Positions 1,652 through 40,592 of a stretch of 41,671 nucleotides of DNA are shown here, piece after piece (the first letter of the stretch is position 1; each line of letters begins with the position of its first letter). The position numbers were made by a program, and so were the translations under genes. Source of the stretch: Gemmataceae bacterium (GTDB lineage Bacteria > Planctomycetota > Planctomycetia > Gemmatales > Gemmataceae); contig JAKEHV010000074.1 in the NCBI GenBank assembly GCA_022614915.1, forward strand, positions 1 to 41,671, given 5' to 3'. The notes under the pieces are model-generated. The model did not search any database. It saw only the letters and a list, made by a program, of their open reading frames with translations, and was not told the origin of the DNA.

Positions 1652-2901
1652 TGCACATCTCCTATTGAGATTGGAATCAAGTAGTGTTGGCAAGCCATCG
1701 CAATGCTCTCAACGAGGCGATCAATGTCATTCGTTGAGTGTCGAGCCGTCAGCAGCACGGCCAGGTGCGGTTGTTGGACCCGGCAAGTGCCGCGTAAGAG
1801 CACCGTGCGCATGCCTCGCTGCAACAAATGCTCGTGCACTGCCAGGGCGGCCGGGCCGGGCGCTGTAAGAGTTTGCATGGGAAAGGTCCCGCCGATTGCA
1901 CCTAGCCCCAGCCTTCCAATCCCCAACTGAAAACGCCGCACCAAATGCCTTAAGTGGGAGCGCAGTGCGTCGCCTTTTTCCTGGTTCACGCGCAGAGCAT
2001 GCTCCGCGGCGCGTAGCGCGGCGACCGAGGGCGGACTGCAATGGACGCGGGTTTCACTGTGTTCGCGAAACCAATTCACGGTCGTGCGGCTGCCGGACAA
2101 GGCCGCCGCCGGCACGCCGAATCCCTTCGCAAGCGAGGCGACCAGGATGACTTCCGCGCCGCGGCCCTCGCTCGCGCGTCGGGCTAGTGTTGGTCCCTCG
2201 CTCGCGCGTCGGGCTCGTGTTGGTCCCTCGCTCGCGCGTCGGGCTCGTGTTGGTCCCTCGCTTACGCGTCGGGTTAGTGTTGGTCCCTCGCTCGCGCGTC
2301 GGGCTAGTGTTCCCTTGCTAGCGCTTCGGGCTCGTGTTAGTCCCTCGCTTGCGCGGCGGGCTAGGGTGCCGCCGCCGTCATGGCCCAGGACACCCAGCGC
2401 CTGCGTGTCGTCTAGGATTAGGCGGCCGCCCCAATGCTGCGCCAGCTCGAGCATTTCCAAAAGGGGCGCAGTTCGGCCGCAACCCGGGCAGACACCGTCG
2501 GCGACGATCAGCGGTTGACCAGCGGTGCGTCGCAGGACTCGCCGGAGGTCATCGGCATCGTAATGCCGAAAACCAACCAGGCGAGCCCCGCGTGTTGTGG
2601 CGCAGGCGGCGCCCCAGCGGGCGATAGCATAGGCGGCGCCGTCCAGAATGATCGCCGTGCGCCGCGACGCTAGCAGGGCGAACAAGTCCCAGAAAAGGTG
2701 CAAGGTGGAAGGGCCCAACACCGCCGCCCCGCACCGTTGCAAGGCGGCAAGCCGCTGGGCGACCACCGGCGCTCGAGGCGATTCCACAAGGGCTGCGGGC
2801 GCTCCGGTCGTTAACCCGGCCCAAGGAGCGAGCTCCCAGCTCGCGTGGCGCATACCGAGGTAATGCGCCCTGGTGAAGTCCAACACCGATGGCGTCTCCA
2901 T
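1627..2901 (-). CDS. PLP-dependent aminotransferase class I/II-like protein (BioF/KBL type) with inserted repeat tract
   Basis: The 424-residue product resembles the fold-type I alpha-oxoamine synthase group (8-amino-7-oxononanoate synthase, glycine C-acetyltransferase). LILDDTQALGVLG matches the strand holding the Asp that contacts the PLP ring. VASLAKGFGVPAAALSG contains the likely Schiff-base lysine. Between these two, where homologues have a short loop, sits a roughly 70-residue run of ARRASEG-type repeats that looks inserted. The ATG at 2901 shares one base with the stop of the upstream 608-aa gene (TGATG), so translation is probably coupled. The 3' end overlaps the protease start. The frame stays open through the repeat, but activity is uncertain. 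No other biotin gene is nearby, so a role in biotin synthesis is not supported. Confidence 0.75.
   Translation of the reverse strand: METPSVLDFTRAHYLGMRHASWELAPWAGLTTGAPAALVESPRAPVVAQRLAALQRCGAAVLGPSTLHLFWDLFALLASRRTAIILDGAAYAIARWGAACATTRGARLVGFRHYDADDLRRVLRRTAGQPLIVADGVCPGCGRTAPLLEMLELAQHWGGRLILDDTQALGVLGHDGGGTLARRASEGLTRARSASKGTLARRASEGPTLTRRVSEGPTRARRASEGPTRARRASEGPTLARRASEGRGAEVILVASLAKGFGVPAAALSGSRTTVNWFREHSETRVHCSPPSVAALRAAEHALRVNQEKGDALRSHLRHLVRRFQLGIGRLGLGAIGGTFPMQTLTAPGPAALAVHEHLLQRGMRTVLLRGTCRVQQPHLAVLLTARHSTNDIDRLVESIAMACQHYLIPISIGDVQCATSIKK
2165..2368 (-). repeat. Seven tandem 27-30 bp repeats inside the PLP gene
   Basis: Seven near-identical units of the form CCCTCGCTCGCGCGTCGGG plus CTAGTGTTGGT follow each other. 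They start at 2165, 2195, 2225, 2255, 2285, 2312 and 2342. Five units are 30 bases and two are 27, so the reading frame is kept and each unit adds roughly ARRASEGPTL on the minus strand. The same core sequence occurs between genes at 26866-26925 and 37754-37778. Confidence 0.95.
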
Positions 2902-9873: not shown

Positions 9874-10350
9874 ATGACCAAAAATCAGCTTCGGTGCTTT
9901 GTTGTTATCGCGCTCGCCATGCCGCTCTTGCCCATGCTCCGCGCGGCGGGCCAAGGCGACAACGCGCCGTTTAAGACCGAGTATTTCAACGGCAAAGTCG
10001 TGCCGCTCGAACAAATCCTGAAAAAACACGGCGCCAAGCTCGACGCCGACGCCACGCCCACTTGGCATGCACTCCTGACCGACGACGGCAAAGTCTATCC
10101 GCTCGTCAAAGATGCCGGCGCGCGCATGTTTTTCAAAGACGCCAAGCTGTTGAACCGGCCCATGCGCTTGACCGGCCGGCTCATACCCGGCGCCACGCTC
10201 CTGCAAGTCGTCAACGTCCACAGCTATCAGAAAGGCCAACTGCACGACGTCTACTATTGGTGCGACATCTGCACCATCCGCGGTTTCGAGGCCGGCATCT
10301 GCGACTGCTGCGGGGCGCCAATGGAGTTTCGGGAAACGCCCGTCAAATAA
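9874..10350 (+). CDS. Small secreted protein with C-terminal cysteine cluster
   Basis: The 158-residue product begins MTKNQLRCFVVIALAMPLL, a good Sec signal with probable cleavage near AAGQG, so it is likely periplasmic or exported. The middle contains a compact beta-rich stretch (MRLTGRLIPGATLLQVVNV) that could be an OB-like barrel. The C-terminus holds WCDICTIRGFEAGICDCCG, five cysteines in CxxC and CxCC patterns that could bind a metal or form disulphides. I do not recognise a named family. Its start is 14 bases after the der stop, so the two may share a transcript, though the functions seem unrelated. Confidence 0.75.
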   Translation: MTKNQLRCFVVIALAMPLLPMLRAAGQGDNAPFKTEYFNGKVVPLEQILKKHGAKLDADATPTWHALLTDDGKVYPLVKDAGARMFFKDAKLLNRPMRLTGRLIPGATLLQVVNVHSYQKGQLHDVYYWCDICTIRGFEAGICDCCGAPMEFRETPVK

Positions 10351-10352
10351 AC

Positions 10353-10479
10353 CCGAAATCCGAATCACGAAATCCGAAACAAATTCAAAGTCCCAAAAAA
10401 GTGAAAAGCCAACGAGCATTTTTTGAGTTTTCTTCTTTGGATTTCGGGCTTGTTTCGAGTTTCGGGATTCGGATTTCGG
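10353..10479. repeat. AT-rich imperfect palindrome of CCGAAATCCGAA type
   Basis: A left arm at 10353-10393 (beginning CCGAAATCCGAATC) pairs with a right arm at 10439-10479 over about 41 bases with few mismatches, leaving a roughly 45-base loop. It fills most of the space between the Cys-rich protein and gcvT and is much more AT-rich than the genes. The same words occur at 12299-12495. Confidence 0.85.
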
Positions 10480-10553
10480 ATTTTCAGGTGCTTGATTCCT
10501 TCCCATCGTCCCTCTAGACTTCTCACATCCTCGCGCCGTCGGGAGCATTTCGA

Positions 10554-11666
<1,113 letters not shown>

Positions 11667-12190: not shown

Positions 12191-12280
12191 AACGGGCGGC
12201 CGGCGTTGGCCTGACGCCAAAAGCGGACCCCACTAATTACCTCTTCGACCCGTCAGGCCAACGTCCGCCTCCCGTTTTTA
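12191..12280 (+). terminator. Long hairpin followed by a T run, possible terminator of gcvTH
   Basis: AACGGGCGGCCGGCGTTGGC at 12191 onward pairs imperfectly with the arm at 12251-12276 (CGTCAGGCCAACGTCCGCCT) over about 26 bases with a 34-base loop. TTTTTATTT follows. The loop is longer than in a classical intrinsic terminator, so this may be a dispersed repeat that also works as a terminator. The rest of the gene-free stretch 12070-12575 holds only this and the AT-rich palindrome after it. Confidence 0.55.
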
Positions 12281-12298: not shown

Positions 12299-12495
12299 GC
12301 TTTTTTCAAAATTCAAAAACTCAAAGATCCAAATCCGAAACAATCTGCAAATTCAAAAAAGAAATGCGCAAACAAGAATGCAAGTTTTCCGCTTTCTTGT
12401 TTGAATTTGGATTTCCGATTTGTTTCGGACTTGGTTCTTCGGATTTCGAATCTGTTTTGGATTTGGATCTTCGAATTTCGGATTTGTTTCGTTTT
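12299..12495. repeat. Second AT-rich imperfect palindrome (CCGAAATC-type words)
   Basis: The left part holds AAAGATCCAAATCCGAAACA and AATTCAAAAA words. The right part holds the complementary GGATTTGGATCTTCGAATTT and TTTGGATTTCCGATTTGTTT. Together they form a long imperfect inverted repeat between gcvH and the oxidoreductase gene. Base composition differs sharply from the flanking genes. It is of the same kind as 10353-10479. Confidence 0.75.
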
Positions 12496-15000: not shown

Positions 15001-15433
15001 TAATTGCTGATACTATCGTGAAACACGATGTGTCAGCAATTTAAGTATAAGTCATTACTTAACTTACGTCCAAAACACAGTGAAAAAATTGCTGACACAT
15101 CGCTCATTTTGGGTGTCGTGTCATGCATTTTTGTTACTCCTTTGATTGCAAGGGTTTGTGAAAAACAGATTGATGACACGCATTTCTTGGCGGCTATCAC
15201 TAATCCTGGCAATTAGTTGCCGACAACTTCCGCTTGTTTTTTCGGCAGCGGTTTTCTAACGTTGGGACCGGCGGGTCCGACCCACGGTTGCAATCGGCCA
15301 CGAAGCCGGTTCGACCAGAGACTCGCTAACGGACCAGGGAGGAGGATCCGATTCGCCGCGTGCGTTCTGCGCGCGTCCAAGTCCTTTCTCTCTACACACT
15401 CGGCCCATTTGTCCCATACGCAAGGATGCGCTT
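15001..15433. other. Gene-free stretch, AT-rich in its first half
   Basis: No gene is supported here. The first 220 bases are clearly AT-richer than the window average and include a perfect 17-bp inverted repeat (15026-15102). The remainder returns to high GC and serves as the upstream region of the secreted peptidase gene, with AAGGA eight bases before its ATG. Confidence 0.7.
15026..15102. repeat. Perfect 17-bp inverted repeat in AT-rich DNA
   Basis: CGATGTGTCAGCAATTT at 15026-15042 is exactly complementary to AAATTGCTGACACATCG at 15086-15102, with a 43-base spacer. A further AATTGCTGA lies at 15002-15010. It could be a regulator site pair, the ends of a lost mobile element, or a hairpin. 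Confidence 0.9.
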
Positions 15434-17227
15434 ATGGCACGATGGCTCTTGCCCGCCAGCCTGCTCGTCGTACTCTTCGGAACACACCATCACCTGCGAG
15501 GCAATCCCCCCAAAGAGGATGCCGGATTGCACAGCGCATTGGCCCTGCAACAGGCGATGGAGCAAGCCCGGCACTTCATGCTGCTAGGCGAGTCGAAGAA
15601 AGCCGTGGACGCGCTGGAGGAGCAACTCGCGCGCGTCAACGGCCACGCCGGCTTCCTGCGCATGTTGCGCGAAGCCTATCGCGGTCTCATCCAAGATCTG
15701 TGGCTGGCCCATCAAGGGCCGCAGGCGCAGCGCTATGTGGAACGGCTTTGCATCCTTGAACCGGCCGCCGCCAAGGATCCGACGCTGCGGCCGCCGGACT
15801 TGACGCGGGCGAAATCGGCGGACGGCAAAGCCGCACTGCATCCGGAAGGCGACAGCGTGGCGGCGCAGAAAACCAAGACGCCGCTGTCGCTGCCCAACTT
15901 CGCGTTGCATCATCTGAAAGGGAAGAAGGAAGACAATACGCAGGATGCCAAACCCGCCACGGCGCGCGGCAAGATCGAAGATCCCAAGGACGACCCGTTT
16001 TCCTTGGCGAACCAACGCAAAGTAGGCGACGCTGCCAGCGTCGCCGATGGAAGCATGTACCCGGCCAGCGGAGCGAAGCTCGCAGCTTCGCCTACGTCCA
16101 CCGGAGGTGAATCAGAGCTCGCGCGCAGATTGCTTGGCAAAGCGGAGCAGGAATTCAGCCACGGGCGCTTCACGCAAGCCAAGTACTTTTTCGACCAGGC
16201 GTATCAGGCCGACCCTGGAGCGATCGTTTCTTCGCGCGAGCGTTGGGCCTACTGCATGCTCAGCCATGTCGTCGAGCAGCTCAGTCAGCCGGAGCTGGAC
16301 GGCAAAGCGCTCGCGAGCTTGAAGCAACAGGTGCACGGCGCGTTGGTTCTCGCGCCGAGGCTCAAGGATACGGGCCACAAGGTGCTCAAGGAAATCGATC
16401 AACGGGGCAAGGAACAGCCCAGCGGGGCCGCGACACAGGAGAGGCCGGAAACGACCGTGGCGGTCAAGCACGCTGGGCGCAACGCGCAGGGTTGGCTGGT
16501 CGCGGAGACCGCGCACTTCCGCGTCTTTCACACGCAGTCGCAGGAATTGGCGGAAAAGGTCGCGCGCATCGCCGAGGACACGCGCCGCGCCATGTTTCGC
16601 AAGTGGTTCGCCAGCGACGGCGTCCCTTGGAACCCAAAGTGCGAGCTGATCCTGCACCCCACCGGCGCCGATTACCACCGCATCACCGGCGAGTCGCCGC
16701 AGTCGCCGGGCCACACGCGCATCGAGCGCGATCCGTCGGGACAACGCATTGTGGGCAGACGCATGGACCTGCGCTGCGACGTGCCGGCGTTGCTCGAAGC
16801 GATCTTGCCGCACGAAACGACGCATGTGGTCTTGGCAGGCATGTTCGACCAGCATCACGTGCCGCGCTGGGCGGATGAAGGCATCGCGGTCCTGACCGAG
16901 CCGGCGTACAAGGTCGAACAACATCGCCGCAACGCGCTTAAGTGTTACCAAGACGGCACGAAGTTCACGGCCAAGGAACTGGTGTCGCTCCATGATTATC
17001 CGCAGCCCGCGCGTATCCCGGCGTTTTACGCCCAGAGCGTGTGTCTGGTGCAGACCCTGGTGGAGCTGCGCGGCCCCCAGACGGTGACGCAGTTCGTGCG
17101 CGACGGCTTGCGCCAGGGCTACGACGCCGCACTGCAAAAGCACTTCGGCATGAACATGACGGAGTTGGAGCAGCGCTTCAGCCAACGCATGCTGGGCGAG
17201 GGGCAACGGGTGGCGGGAAACAACTGA
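15434..17227 (+). CDS. Secreted gluzincin (peptidase MA-like) with TPR-like N-terminal half
   Basis: The 597-residue product begins MARWLLPASLLVVLFGTHHH, a Sec signal. Two helical TPR-like segments follow, near residues 35-95 (LLGESKKAVDALEEQL) and 230-320 (HGRFTQAKYFFDQAYQADPG). From about residue 355 (VAETAHFRVFHTQSQELAEK) it matches the peptidase-MA architecture. The catalytic HETTH in LPHETTHVVLAGMF is followed 16 residues later by PRWADEGIAV, whose Glu is the third zinc ligand. AAGGA eight bases before ATG 15434 supports the start. A composite palindromic element (16022-16095) is inserted in frame in the linker. The family acts outside the cytoplasm on unknown protein substrates. Confidence 0.85.
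   Translation: MARWLLPASLLVVLFGTHHHLRGNPPKEDAGLHSALALQQAMEQARHFMLLGESKKAVDALEEQLARVNGHAGFLRMLREAYRGLIQDLWLAHQGPQAQRYVERLCILEPAAAKDPTLRPPDLTRAKSADGKAALHPEGDSVAAQKTKTPLSLPNFALHHLKGKKEDNTQDAKPATARGKIEDPKDDPFSLANQRKVGDAASVADGSMYPASGAKLAASPTSTGGESELARRLLGKAEQEFSHGRFTQAKYFFDQAYQADPGAIVSSRERWAYCMLSHVVEQLSQPELDGKALASLKQQVHGALVLAPRLKDTGHKVLKEIDQRGKEQPSGAATQERPETTVAVKHAGRNAQGWLVAETAHFRVFHTQSQELAEKVARIAEDTRRAMFRKWFASDGVPWNPKCELILHPTGADYHRITGESPQSPGHTRIERDPSGQRIVGRRMDLRCDVPALLEAILPHETTHVVLAGMFDQHHVPRWADEGIAVLTEPAYKVEQHRRNALKCYQDGTKFTAKELVSLHDYPQPARIPAFYAQSVCLVQTLVELRGPQTVTQFVRDGLRQGYDAALQKHFGMNMTELEQRFSQRMLGEGQRVAGNN
16022..16095. repeat. REPIN-like composite palindrome inside the peptidase gene
   Basis: Terminal GTAGGCG and CGCCTAC (7 bp) enclose two perfect hairpins: GGCGACGCT-GCC-AGCGTCGCC at the left, and GCGAAGCT-CGC-AGCTTCGC at the right. 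The 74-base element is read in frame, contributing GDAASVADGSMYPASGAKLA to the linker of the protein. Confidence 0.85.
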
Positions 17228-17646: not shown

Positions 17647-18855
17647 TCACAGAACGCGGCAGAACACCGCTTTGAGATAGCGCCCCTCCGGCACGTGCGC
17701 CAAAAAAGGGTGATCCGGCCCCGCGCCTGTCAGCTTGAGGATTTGGAGGATGCGGCCCGCTTGCCAGGCGGCGCGGCGCAGCGTTTCGAGAAACGTTTCT
17801 TCGCTCACCAGACCCGTGCAGGAACACGTCAAAAAGATGCCGCCCGGCGCGACGGCTTGCAGCGCCAGCTTGTTCATGTCGAAGTAACGCTTGAGTGCGA
17901 AGCCGATCTCCTCCCGATCGCGCGTTTGCTTGGCAGGGTCGAGGACGACGACGTCGAACTTCTGTCCTGAAGGAAGGGTTTCGCGCAGCCAGGCGAACAG
18001 GTCCGCTTGCACGAAGCGGATACGGGCCTGATTCAAGTTGGCGTTCTGCTTAGCCAGAGCGATGACTTGCTCATCTAAATCGAGACCGACGACTTCCTCG
18101 GCCTGGCCCAGCGCCTTGGCATAAACCGCGAAGCCGCCTGTGTTGCAGCACAAATCGAGCACGCGCTTGCCGGCACAAAACTCCGCCAGCGCTCTTCGAT
18201 TATCTCTTTGATCCAGAAAGAAGCCCGTTTTGTGCTTGCTCCCCGGTGTTACACGAAAGCGCAATCCGTGCTCTGCGATCGTGCCTGGCGAAGGCGCTTC
18301 CGGCGCTCGGCAATCAAACGACTCTTGCTTTTGCACGTGTTCTTCGGCAAACCAATAGAAGCGCGCCTCCGGAAAGTGCTTCGTAAGCGCGTCCTCTATG
18401 ACTTGCCGAAAGCGATACATGCCCGCCGCGAAAAACTCCAGCACAATCGTGCCGCCGAACCGGTCCGCGACCAGGCCGCTTAAGCCGTCGCCTTCGGAAT
18501 GCACCAGACGATAGGCGTCGCTTACTTCATCCAGGCGCAACAGGCTTCGGCGCAAAGTTACGGCCTGGTCGAGGCGGCGCGCGAAGAAATCGGCACCGAT
18601 GGCTTCGTTCGGATCGGCGGTCAAGACGCGCAAGGCGATGCGCGAATGGCCGTTGTAAAAGCCGCGGCCGGCCCACTGCCCGTCGCGGTCCACGATGTCC
18701 ACGACGGTCCCAGGCGCCAACCCCCTCACCCCCAACCCCTCTCCCTGAGGGCGAAGGGAGTCCGGTTTCTCAACCATTTTTTGAAAGATCCAAGGGTGCG
18801 AGGAGCGACGGGCGATCTTGAGGCGGACCGTTGGAAGTGTTTCCGGACTCGACAT
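17647..18855 (-). CDS. Class I SAM-dependent rRNA methyltransferase, RlmI-like
   Basis: The 402-residue product has an N-terminal PUA-like domain (TVVDIVDRDGQWAGRGFYN), a middle EEHVQKQESF region, and a Rossmann domain. That domain has VLDLCCNTGGFAVYAKALG as the SAM motif, DVVVLDPAKQTRDREEIG as motif IV and FLTCSCTGLVS as motif VI. This order matches RlmI (23S rRNA m5C1962 methyltransferase) and its relatives; the exact target base is not certain. Between about residues 30 and 46 a repeat-derived SLRPQGEGLGVRGLAPG interrupts the junction between the first strand and the PUA core. The ATG at 18855 is preferred over a TTG further upstream. A TATAAT lies upstream on this strand. Confidence 0.88.
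   Translation of the reverse strand: MSSPETLPTVRLKIARRSSHPWIFQKMVEKPDSLRPQGEGLGVRGLAPGTVVDIVDRDGQWAGRGFYNGHSRIALRVLTADPNEAIGADFFARRLDQAVTLRRSLLRLDEVSDAYRLVHSEGDGLSGLVADRFGGTIVLEFFAAGMYRFRQVIEDALTKHFPEARFYWFAEEHVQKQESFDCRAPEAPSPGTIAEHGLRFRVTPGSKHKTGFFLDQRDNRRALAEFCAGKRVLDLCCNTGGFAVYAKALGQAEEVVGLDLDEQVIALAKQNANLNQARIRFVQADLFAWLRETLPSGQKFDVVVLDPAKQTRDREEIGFALKRYFDMNKLALQAVAPGGIFLTCSCTGLVSEETFLETLRRAAWQAGRILQILKLTGAGPDHPFLAHVPEGRYLKAVFCRVL
18719..18765. repeat. In-frame palindromic repeat inside the RlmI-like gene
   Basis: CCCCCTCACCCCCAACCCCT followed by CTCCCTGAGGGCGAAGGGAG is a GC-rich dispersed type of hairpin related, in inverted orientation, to the one in gcvT. It is read on the minus strand as LRPQGEGLGVRG. 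Confidence 0.75.
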
Positions 18856-18890
18856 GGGGTCGGGACTCGCCAAATTGCCCTGTTTCCGCC

Positions 18891-28288: not shown

Positions 28289-28855
28289 TTAGGCCGTGCC
28301 CAACGCTACCACCCAAGCCGTATCGTCATGGAACGATTCGATCAACGCCAGCACCGAGTTTGCGCTCATCCAGGCAAGCAGCTCGGCGGCACTGCACCGA
28401 AAGACATCCGGCGACTTCCCCGCGACCGGACCCGGAGCGATGTAAAACCTCCAGTCGCCAAGGTCAAACAGCCAATGCCTGATGACCGGATCGTCTAGGC
28501 TGAAGTCCGGGGGCACAATCCAGGTCGCTTCGCCCGCCAGCGGCCGCAGGCTAAAGCCTGCGGCTACAGGGTCTGTAGCCGCAGCCTTCAGGCTGCGGTC
28601 GCCTGCGGGCTGCCAGGTCCCCGGAACCCCGTACTCCTCGGGCGGCTCTTTGTGCATCAAAAAGATTGGCCCAGCCGACGCCAAGAGGGCGGTCAACAAT
28701 TCCCGCCGGCACGCCGCGACGGCTTCTTCTCTCTGGCGGCGGCGGCGCGCGAGGAACCTCGGCCGGCCTAGATCCCAGACGGAGCTTTCGCGCCGCCGGA
28801 TATCCGTGCTCTGCCAGCGGGACAGTATCTCGTCAATGTGCTTGCTTAGAGTCAT
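28289..28855 (-). CDS. Unknown cytoplasmic protein with inserted repeat (188 aa)
   Basis: The product begins MTLSKHIDEILSRWQSTDIR, has a basic helix (RFLARRRRQREEAVAACRRE), and ends with a beta-rich part (RHWLFDLGDWRFYIAPGPVA, LLAWMSANSVLALIESFHDD). Between them, about residues 86-104, SLKAAATDPVAAGFSLRPL is encoded by a palindromic repeat and interrupts what would be one domain (EEYGVPGTWQPAG to EATWIVPPDFSLDD). The start at 28855 is inferred because the longer frame runs into the upstream cytochrome gene. I do not recognise the family. The gap to the mono-heme gene is 55 bases on the same strand, so they may share a transcript. The stretch 28074-28288 before the next gene is empty. Confidence 0.65.
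   Translation of the reverse strand: MTLSKHIDEILSRWQSTDIRRRESSVWDLGRPRFLARRRRQREEAVAACRRELLTALLASAGPIFLMHKEPPEEYGVPGTWQPAGDRSLKAAATDPVAAGFSLRPLAGEATWIVPPDFSLDDPVIRHWLFDLGDWRFYIAPGPVAGKSPDVFRCSAAELLAWMSANSVLALIESFHDDTAWVVALGTA
28544..28598. repeat. REPIN-like double hairpin inside the 188-aa gene
   Basis: CCGCAGGCT-AA-AGCCTGCGG (28544-28563) and CCGCAGCC-TTCA-GGCTGCGG (28579-28598) are perfect hairpins joined by a third pairing, GCGGCTAC with GTAGCCGC (28560-28567, 28575-28582). The element is read through in frame. Confidence 0.88.
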
Positions 28856-35390: not shown

Positions 35391-35475
35391 AGGGGTCAGG
35401 AATCAGCGGTCAGGAGTCAGAGGTCAGGAGTCAGGGGGCGCAGGCTGACTTCTGACTCCTGACATCTGACCTCTG
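35391..35475. repeat. GGTCAGGAGTCAG-type direct repeats forming a hairpin
   Basis: GGTCAGGAATCAGC, GGTCAGGAGTCAGA and GGTCAGGAGTCAGG follow each other. They then face the complementary CTGACTTCTGACTCCTGACA and TCTGACCTC, so the segment can fold into alternative hairpins. It ends six bases before the first tRNA gene. The preceding stretch 35227-35390 holds nothing I can support. Confidence 0.85.
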
Positions 35476-35480
35476 GTGTT

Positions 35481-35551
35481 GCGTCCATGATGTAGCGGAA
35501 GCCTGCTACCTTGCCATGGTAGACGTGCGGGTTCGACTCCCGCTGGACGCT
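35481..35551 (+). tRNA. tRNA-Gly (anticodon GCC)
   Basis: GCGTCCA pairs with TGGACGC as acceptor. The anticodon stem CTACC/GGTAG encloses TTGCCAT, giving anticodon GCC. The T arm is GCGGG-TTCGACT-CCCGC. The D arm has one mismatch but keeps A14 and GG. CCA is not encoded. It is the first of four tandem tRNA genes. Confidence 0.92.
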
Positions 35552-35555
35552 TCGT

Positions 35556-35627
35556 GCCCTGTGACGCAGCGGGTGTGGCGACCTGCCTGTCGAGCAGGCG
35601 AGACGGGTTCGAGTCCCGTACAGGGCG
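35556..35627 (+). tRNA. tRNA-Asp (anticodon GTC)
   Basis: GCCCTGT pairs with ACAGGGC. The anticodon stem CCTGC/GCAGG encloses CTGTCGA, anticodon GTC. The T arm is ACGGG-TTCGAGT-CCCGT. The discriminator is G, as expected for Asp. CCA is not encoded. It starts four bases after the Gly tRNA. Confidence 0.92.
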
Positions 35628-35630
35628 CTT

Positions 35631-35703
35631 GGGGGCGCATGTGCCAAGGGGGCGAGTCTGCCTTGCAAGCAGACTGAGATGGGTTCGATTCCCATCGTCT
35701 CCA
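35631..35703 (+). tRNA. tRNA-Ala (anticodon TGC), unusual D arm
   Basis: GGGGGCG pairs with CGTCTCC, including the G3-U70 wobble that marks tRNA-Ala. The anticodon stem TCTGC/GCAGA encloses CTTGCAA, anticodon TGC. The T arm is ATGGG-TTCGATT-CCCAT and the discriminator is A. By standard numbering the D stem does not form; GCC and GGC one step further in could pair instead. CCA is not encoded. Confidence 0.85.
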
Positions 35704-40456: not shown

Positions 40457-40592
40457 TCGAGCGGGGCACGTCCGCCTCCTGGGGGGTTTAGGGGGGCGCT
40501 CCCTGGGAGGCGCACGGCCCCGCTCGAATCGATTCATCGTTTCGCGCTCACTGTATCCCTAGCTGTACTAGGGGCGCTGCGAGCGCGAAACG
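40457..40592. repeat. Nested hairpins between the PPC and cytochrome/WD40 genes
   Basis: TCGAGCGGGGC (40457-40467) pairs with GCCCCGCTCGA (40517-40527). CGTTTCGCGCTC (40538-40549) pairs with GAGCGCGAAACG (40581-40592), enclosing CCCTAG/CTAGGG (40557-40562, 40568-40573). All pairings are perfect. They may act as mRNA processing or attenuation structures, or be dispersed repeats. Confidence 0.85.

Follow-up and report, generated by a model that had tools for sequence, protein, structure and literature searches.

The window analyzed here, a stretch of 41,671 nucleotides taken as a whole, is contig C462 (61% GC) of a 6.1-Mb draft genome of a Gemmataceae bacterium (86% complete; GCA_022614915.1). 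An open reading frame (ORF) on its reverse strand runs in frame across a double hairpin, where it reads PGTWQPAGDRSLKAAATDPVAAGFSLRPLAGEATWIVPPD (fuller stretch, PAGDRSLKAAATDPVAAGFSLRPLAGE). The hairpin region is a 79-nt imperfect inverted repeat with outer arms of 38 nt each, which are 84% complementary and 3 nt apart. It contains hairpin 1 (28543–28564; 10-bp stem, 2-nt loop TT), hairpin 2 (28579–28598; 9-bp stem, 2-nt loop TC), and a central pairing that overlaps both (28558–28584; 12-bp arms, 3-nt loop). The first-pass annotation had described two hairpins with a third overlapping pairing, translated within a 188-aa ORF, and we confirmed both this anatomy and the same translation. Each half of the dimer consists of a GTAG tag followed by a hairpin, GTAGCCGCAG[G/C]CT-T[T/C]-AG[G/C]CTGCGG. 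The tags of both units point inward (28564–28578), which corresponds to the tail-to-tail (TT) arrangement in the terms of Di Nocera et al. (2013, PMC3733652). The repeat core in its GGC form matched once in the window at ≤3 mismatches, with 0 matches expected in shuffles, and the GCC form, also present in the window, is the second unit. The translated segment provides a candidate repeat-derived peptide for proteomic detection, AAATDPVAAGFSLR. The features of the window are listed in Table 1.

Table 1. Coordinates of the double hairpin, its host gene, and the other in-frame repeats of the window.
Feature	Position	Strand	Evidence
Host gene, 188-aa protein without known family, interrupted in frame	28289..28855	-	codon potential, coding substitution pattern vs G027
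Complete inverted repeat: two GTAG REPs joined tail to tail, outer arms extended	28532..28610	-	arm complementarity, RNA z-score
REP unit 1 GTAGCCGCAGGCTTTAGCCTGCGGC, translated VAAGFSLR in the gene	28543..28567	-	exact family-core match, 0 expected by chance
7-nt spacer separating the two inward GTAG tags	28568..28574	.	direct reading, alignment
REP unit 2 GTAGCCGCAGCCTTCAGGCTGCGG, translated RSLKAAAT in the gene	28575..28598	+	core matches
Head-to-head GTAG REP dimer of another family (GTAGGCGAMGCTG), the second dimer, within peptidase_MA-like gene 15434-17227 and in its frame (VGDAASVADGSMYPASGAKLAAS)	16022..16095	+	
Tandem array of seven 30-nt ASEG units (LARRASEGP...) within PLP aminotransferase-like gene 1627-2904 and in its frame	2165..2367	-	
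LTPDPSP-type insert LVPSPLAGRGVGGAQD in gcvT 10554-11666; adds ~12 aa that solved GcvT proteins lack	11448..11495	+	
LTPDPSP family, other-strand reading DSLRPQGEGLGVRG, in RlmI-like methyltransferase 17647-18873	18721..18762	-	

In-frame repeats were indeed found in all five unrelated genes for which the first-pass annotation had claimed palindrome copies, but these do not belong to a single element: at least four repeat families are involved, and the PLP gene carries seven units in tandem and not a simple palindrome. The insert of the RlmI-like gene comprises ~11 aa that E. coli YccW/RlmI lacks. Elsewhere in the window, we noticed unassigned long palindromes (12191–12276, 15026–15102, 35409–35463, and 40538–40592), inversely arranged A/T-rich TTCGGATTTCGG repeats around or between genes (10345–10483 and 12317–12485), three adjacent tRNA genes (35481–35703, the third with a score barely at threshold), and, at the right end, a PSCyt1 cytochrome domain of planctomycete type, which points to the phylum. 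An Rfam scan of the window returned tRNAs only.

If the 188-aa ORF were spurious, the dimer would merely be extragenic like most REPs. The protein has zero Pfam or NCBIfam matches, our simple gene finder gave the ORF a weak coding score of 18, and a single-sequence structure prediction was not usable (pLDDT 44), all of which would agree with such a reading. However, codon potential is positive on both sides of the insert in the frame of the ORF alone and negative in all other frames, and a genome from another genus of the same family (G027) contains a homologue, starting at a contig edge, that matches residues 4–46 at 72%. Over 38 aligned codons, substitutions at codon positions 1, 2, and 3 number 7, 3, and 16, with 15 synonymous and nine non-synonymous codon changes and one 6-nt indel, which is in frame. 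The N-terminal part is therefore coding, and the ORF is a real gene in at least that part. We consider a spurious ORF scarcely probable. No homologue covering the insertion site was found in 95 genomes of the family, 398 genomes of the class, or a collection of 84,980 species. One weak hit, in G166, falls in a protein of another type, and we discarded it as noise.

The repeat unit is dispersed over the genome. Its core, with the consensus GTAGCCGCAGSCT-TY-AGSCTGCGG, gave 25 genome-wide matches at ≤3 mismatches, at ~19 sites, and the reversed control gave 0. These sites comprise eight singles, five head-to-head (HH) and six TT dimers or groups. Five of the 19 sites are in genes, as against 82% coding sequence (p = 1e-7), and the other 14 are outside genes, in line with the mostly extragenic location of the GTAG REP superfamily. 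In a 0.94-Mb sample of the genome, a perfect 9-bp hairpin follows 37 of 3010 GTAGs (1.2%), compared with 0–4 cases (≤0.17%) for permutations of GTAG and 0 for CTAC. The tag is thus real and polar, since the hairpin enrichment occurs at GTAG and not at its permutations or CTAC. With the tag on both units, stems of 10 and 9 bp, 2-nt loops, and dispersed singles and dimers, 28532–28610 carries the hallmarks of the GTAG REP superfamily. The core is absent from 40 relatives, and the exact heterodimer was found in no other species among 84,980 species genomes. Related inward dimers are present in a few genomes of the host's family, mostly without a long frame across them. A further GTAG family, GTAGCCGAAGTCGTGAGACTTCGG, was seen at L055 3960–4033 and L058 12799–12822.

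The same REP family lies in frame in four other genes, encoding an ABC ATPase, a transglutaminase-like protein, TssG, and a Dus protein. Two of them provide exact empty sites. The ABC ATPase (L055 6577–6720, G000:C477), with MlaF among its nearest solved relatives, has a 46-aa insert directly before the signature motif that is absent from 26 aligned homologues; here an LTPDPSP palindrome and a REP dimer stand side by side in one loop. In the transglutaminase-like protein (C9), ~35 extra residues after GHFIVK are absent from nine homologues. The alignment of TssG (C529), which also carries both the LTPDPSP and the REP family, to a solved homologue reaches the edge of the insert, and solved homologues of Dus (C540) align on either side of it. 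By analogy with these copies, 28532–28610 is very probably an in-frame insertion in the 188-aa gene rather than ancestral sequence, as the first-pass annotation had proposed.

We estimated the density of in-gene repeats in the same 0.94-Mb sample (101 contigs picked by contig number), in which a simple home-made gene finder called 784 genes with 82% coding, so that all counts are estimates. Pattern families B and J were left out of the counts as unspecific (10 control hits each). The seven specific families form 55 in-gene insert clusters in 46 of the 784 genes (5.9%, ~1 in 17), a count in which out-of-frame copies would be underrepresented, as such an insertion would break the ORF. Five of the 46 insert-bearing genes carry two or more families, and the inserts lie at relative positions between 0.04 and 0.86 along the genes. 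The in-gene fraction of all copies is 24/35 for LTPDPSP, 6/7 for GCACAC (L173, L185, L209, L229, and L050), 8/53 for ASEG, whose ~53 clusters are mostly intergenic, 2/17 for GGACAGG, 5/16 for CACGC, 7/20 for GGAATG, and 3/8 for the REP family of 28532–28610. Compared with 82% coding, depletion in genes is clear for every family other than LTPDPSP (p = 0.04) and GCACAC. LTPDPSP repeats number 92 exact copies in this genome and 18–53 in each of six relatives, and they are rare or absent in others; this patchy spread is typical of mobile repeats.

Selection for frame-preserving insertion, or a role in protein diversification, had been suggested in the first-pass annotation, together with a check on whether intragenic copies avoid stop codons more than intergenic copies. 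The outcome of this check was negative. The mean numbers of stop-free frames inside and outside genes are similar for LTPDPSP (5.08/5.00), CACGC (5.67/5.75), GCACAC (5.91/6.00), and ASEG (4.5/4.0), and dimers of the REP family have 2–4 stop-free frames in genes versus 2–3 outside. In-gene LTPDPSP copies are spread almost evenly over four frames (7, 5, 8, and 4 copies; p = 0.64), so that no LTPDPSP peptide is favored; the two skipped frames would be, by our own reading of the palindrome, those in which one or the other arm carries a stop. These stop-frame and LTPDPSP frame data speak for passenger elements and against selection of a peptide.

A coding element might nevertheless be selected for its peptide, as has been proposed for Rickettsia palindromic elements, with a helix or linker that diversifies proteins. 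In support of this possibility, the four in-gene TT copies share one orientation and one frame (RSLKAAAT...VAAGFSLR), although 2–4 frames are open. Their spacers of 7, 16, 16, and 13 nt are all 1 mod 3, and three of the four have extra outer arms in common. Their uniformity is a hint of a preference beyond openness, for which n = 4 is too few to decide. Likewise, most arms of the mostly intragenic GCACAC family read GTLRVP...GTRSVP, even though almost every one of the six frames is open. However, one GCACAC arm is read in another frame (HTPCA), which weakens the candidate rule that this family always uses one frame, and the Dus copy of the REP family is in a different frame from the TT copies. 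Together with the even use of the LTPDPSP frames and the depletion of most families in genes, these exceptions make selection for the peptide improbable in our view.

The hairpin might also act as RNA within the message, by pausing, stabilizing, or processing, in which case translation would be incidental. The RNA fold of the region is very stable (-68.3 kcal/mol; z = -6.9 versus dinucleotide shuffles), and two GTAG REPs at other loci (L050 6271–6274 and L059 6507–6510) terminate the preceding gene, whose TAG stop codon is part of their tag, as is described for extragenic REPs in PMC3733652. The fold stability, however, follows from the palindrome itself, and the inserts occur anywhere along genes that are unrelated. 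We therefore regard an RNA-level role as very improbable.

The most probable explanation, to which we assign a probability of roughly 0.87, is that 28532–28610 is a TT dimer of GTAG REPs, a short non-autonomous mobile palindrome, which inserted into the 188-aa gene, and that the surviving in-gene copies have been filtered by tolerance. Intragenic copies are no poorer in stops than the others, the LTPDPSP frames are evenly used, and genes hold fewer copies of most families than their coding share predicts. This pattern agrees with selfish or passenger elements whose survivors have passed purifying selection, and not with selection for insertion or with protein diversification. Under the proposed mechanism, a RAYT (REP-associated Y1 transposase) acting in trans would probably move the GTAG REPs, and most copies landing in genes would be lost. 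The survivors would be those that leave a multiple of three, keep a frame free of stops, and sit in a tolerant loop; they would then be translated as 20–35 extra residues, a segment that might be functionally neutral.

The genome contains three Y1_Tnp genes, two of which are RAYT-like, both below the NCBI cut-off for the REP-associated family. One of the RAYT-like genes (G000:C538, L068 9194–10289) has GTAGGATGGACATTC(C/T)TGTCC repeats of another GTAG family on either side, and the gene with its flanking repeats is a classical REPtron of that family. Among the three Y1_Tnp genes of the 86%-complete assembly, none is flanked by the REP family of 28532–28610. A RAYT flanked by the same REP is a frequent rather than universal trait of GTAG REPs and does not serve as a strict criterion; REPtrons may be missing from REP-bearing species, according to PMC3733652.

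A broader proposal is that this lineage tolerates coding palindromes of many unrelated families at once in ~6% of its genes, plausibly ~300 genes per genome, with frame or orientation preferences beyond stop avoidance in some families, so that the repeats would form a standing source of protein loops. We regard this as rather unlikely as a whole. With at least seven families in ~6% of the sampled genes, this ~6-Mb genome represents a large natural experiment on where proteins tolerate 10–45 extra residues. Since repeat-derived peptides recur in unrelated proteins, annotation is affected as well. Our literature search found no paper on the repeat peptides ARRASEG and TPDPSP or their variants, and no description, for the phylum, of the density of in-gene palindromes or the number of coexisting families. 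In-gene GTAG REPs are already known; the density and the number of coexisting families are the interesting part.

In-frame palindromes were once called a peculiarity of Rickettsia and were later met, with REPs, in several other bacteria. The Rickettsia palindromic elements are likewise palindromic repeats standing in frame in many unrelated genes, and the comparison with them made in the first-pass annotation holds as an analogy. The tags differ: RPE-4 and RPE-6 are CGTC-tagged REPs according to PMC3733652, whereas 28532–28610 is GTAG-tagged in both units. REPINs and RAYTs (Bertels and Rainey 2011, PMC3116915) resemble the present case in that two inverted REPs form a unit and RAYT-like genes occur in the genome. 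However, REPINs are HH dimers with GTAG outside, and 28532–28610 is a TT dimer with GTAG inside. Intragenic MITEs such as ERIC (PMC10969869) are similarly non-autonomous inverted repeats able to fuse in frame, but MITEs are 70–300 bp long with terminal inverted repeats, whereas 28532–28610 is marked out by a hairpin bearing a GTAG tag.

The closest likeness is to the GTAG REPs themselves. In PMC3733652, these are palindromes of 20–40 bp with a tag at one end, stems of 5–13 bp, and short TY loops, which form HH and TT dimers, are mostly intergenic, and have been described in Planctomycetes and Verrucomicrobia. The paper also describes intragenic copies, dimers read in frame as 20–30 aa, and genes with two insertions, and it reasons in terms of passengers. 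The double hairpin is alike in its tag, 9–10-bp stem, TY loop, occurrence as singles and dimers, and some in-frame copies; it is likened to the 24 families of that paper by described traits. The difference here is that a single genome carries, within its genes, several families both with and without the GTAG tag.
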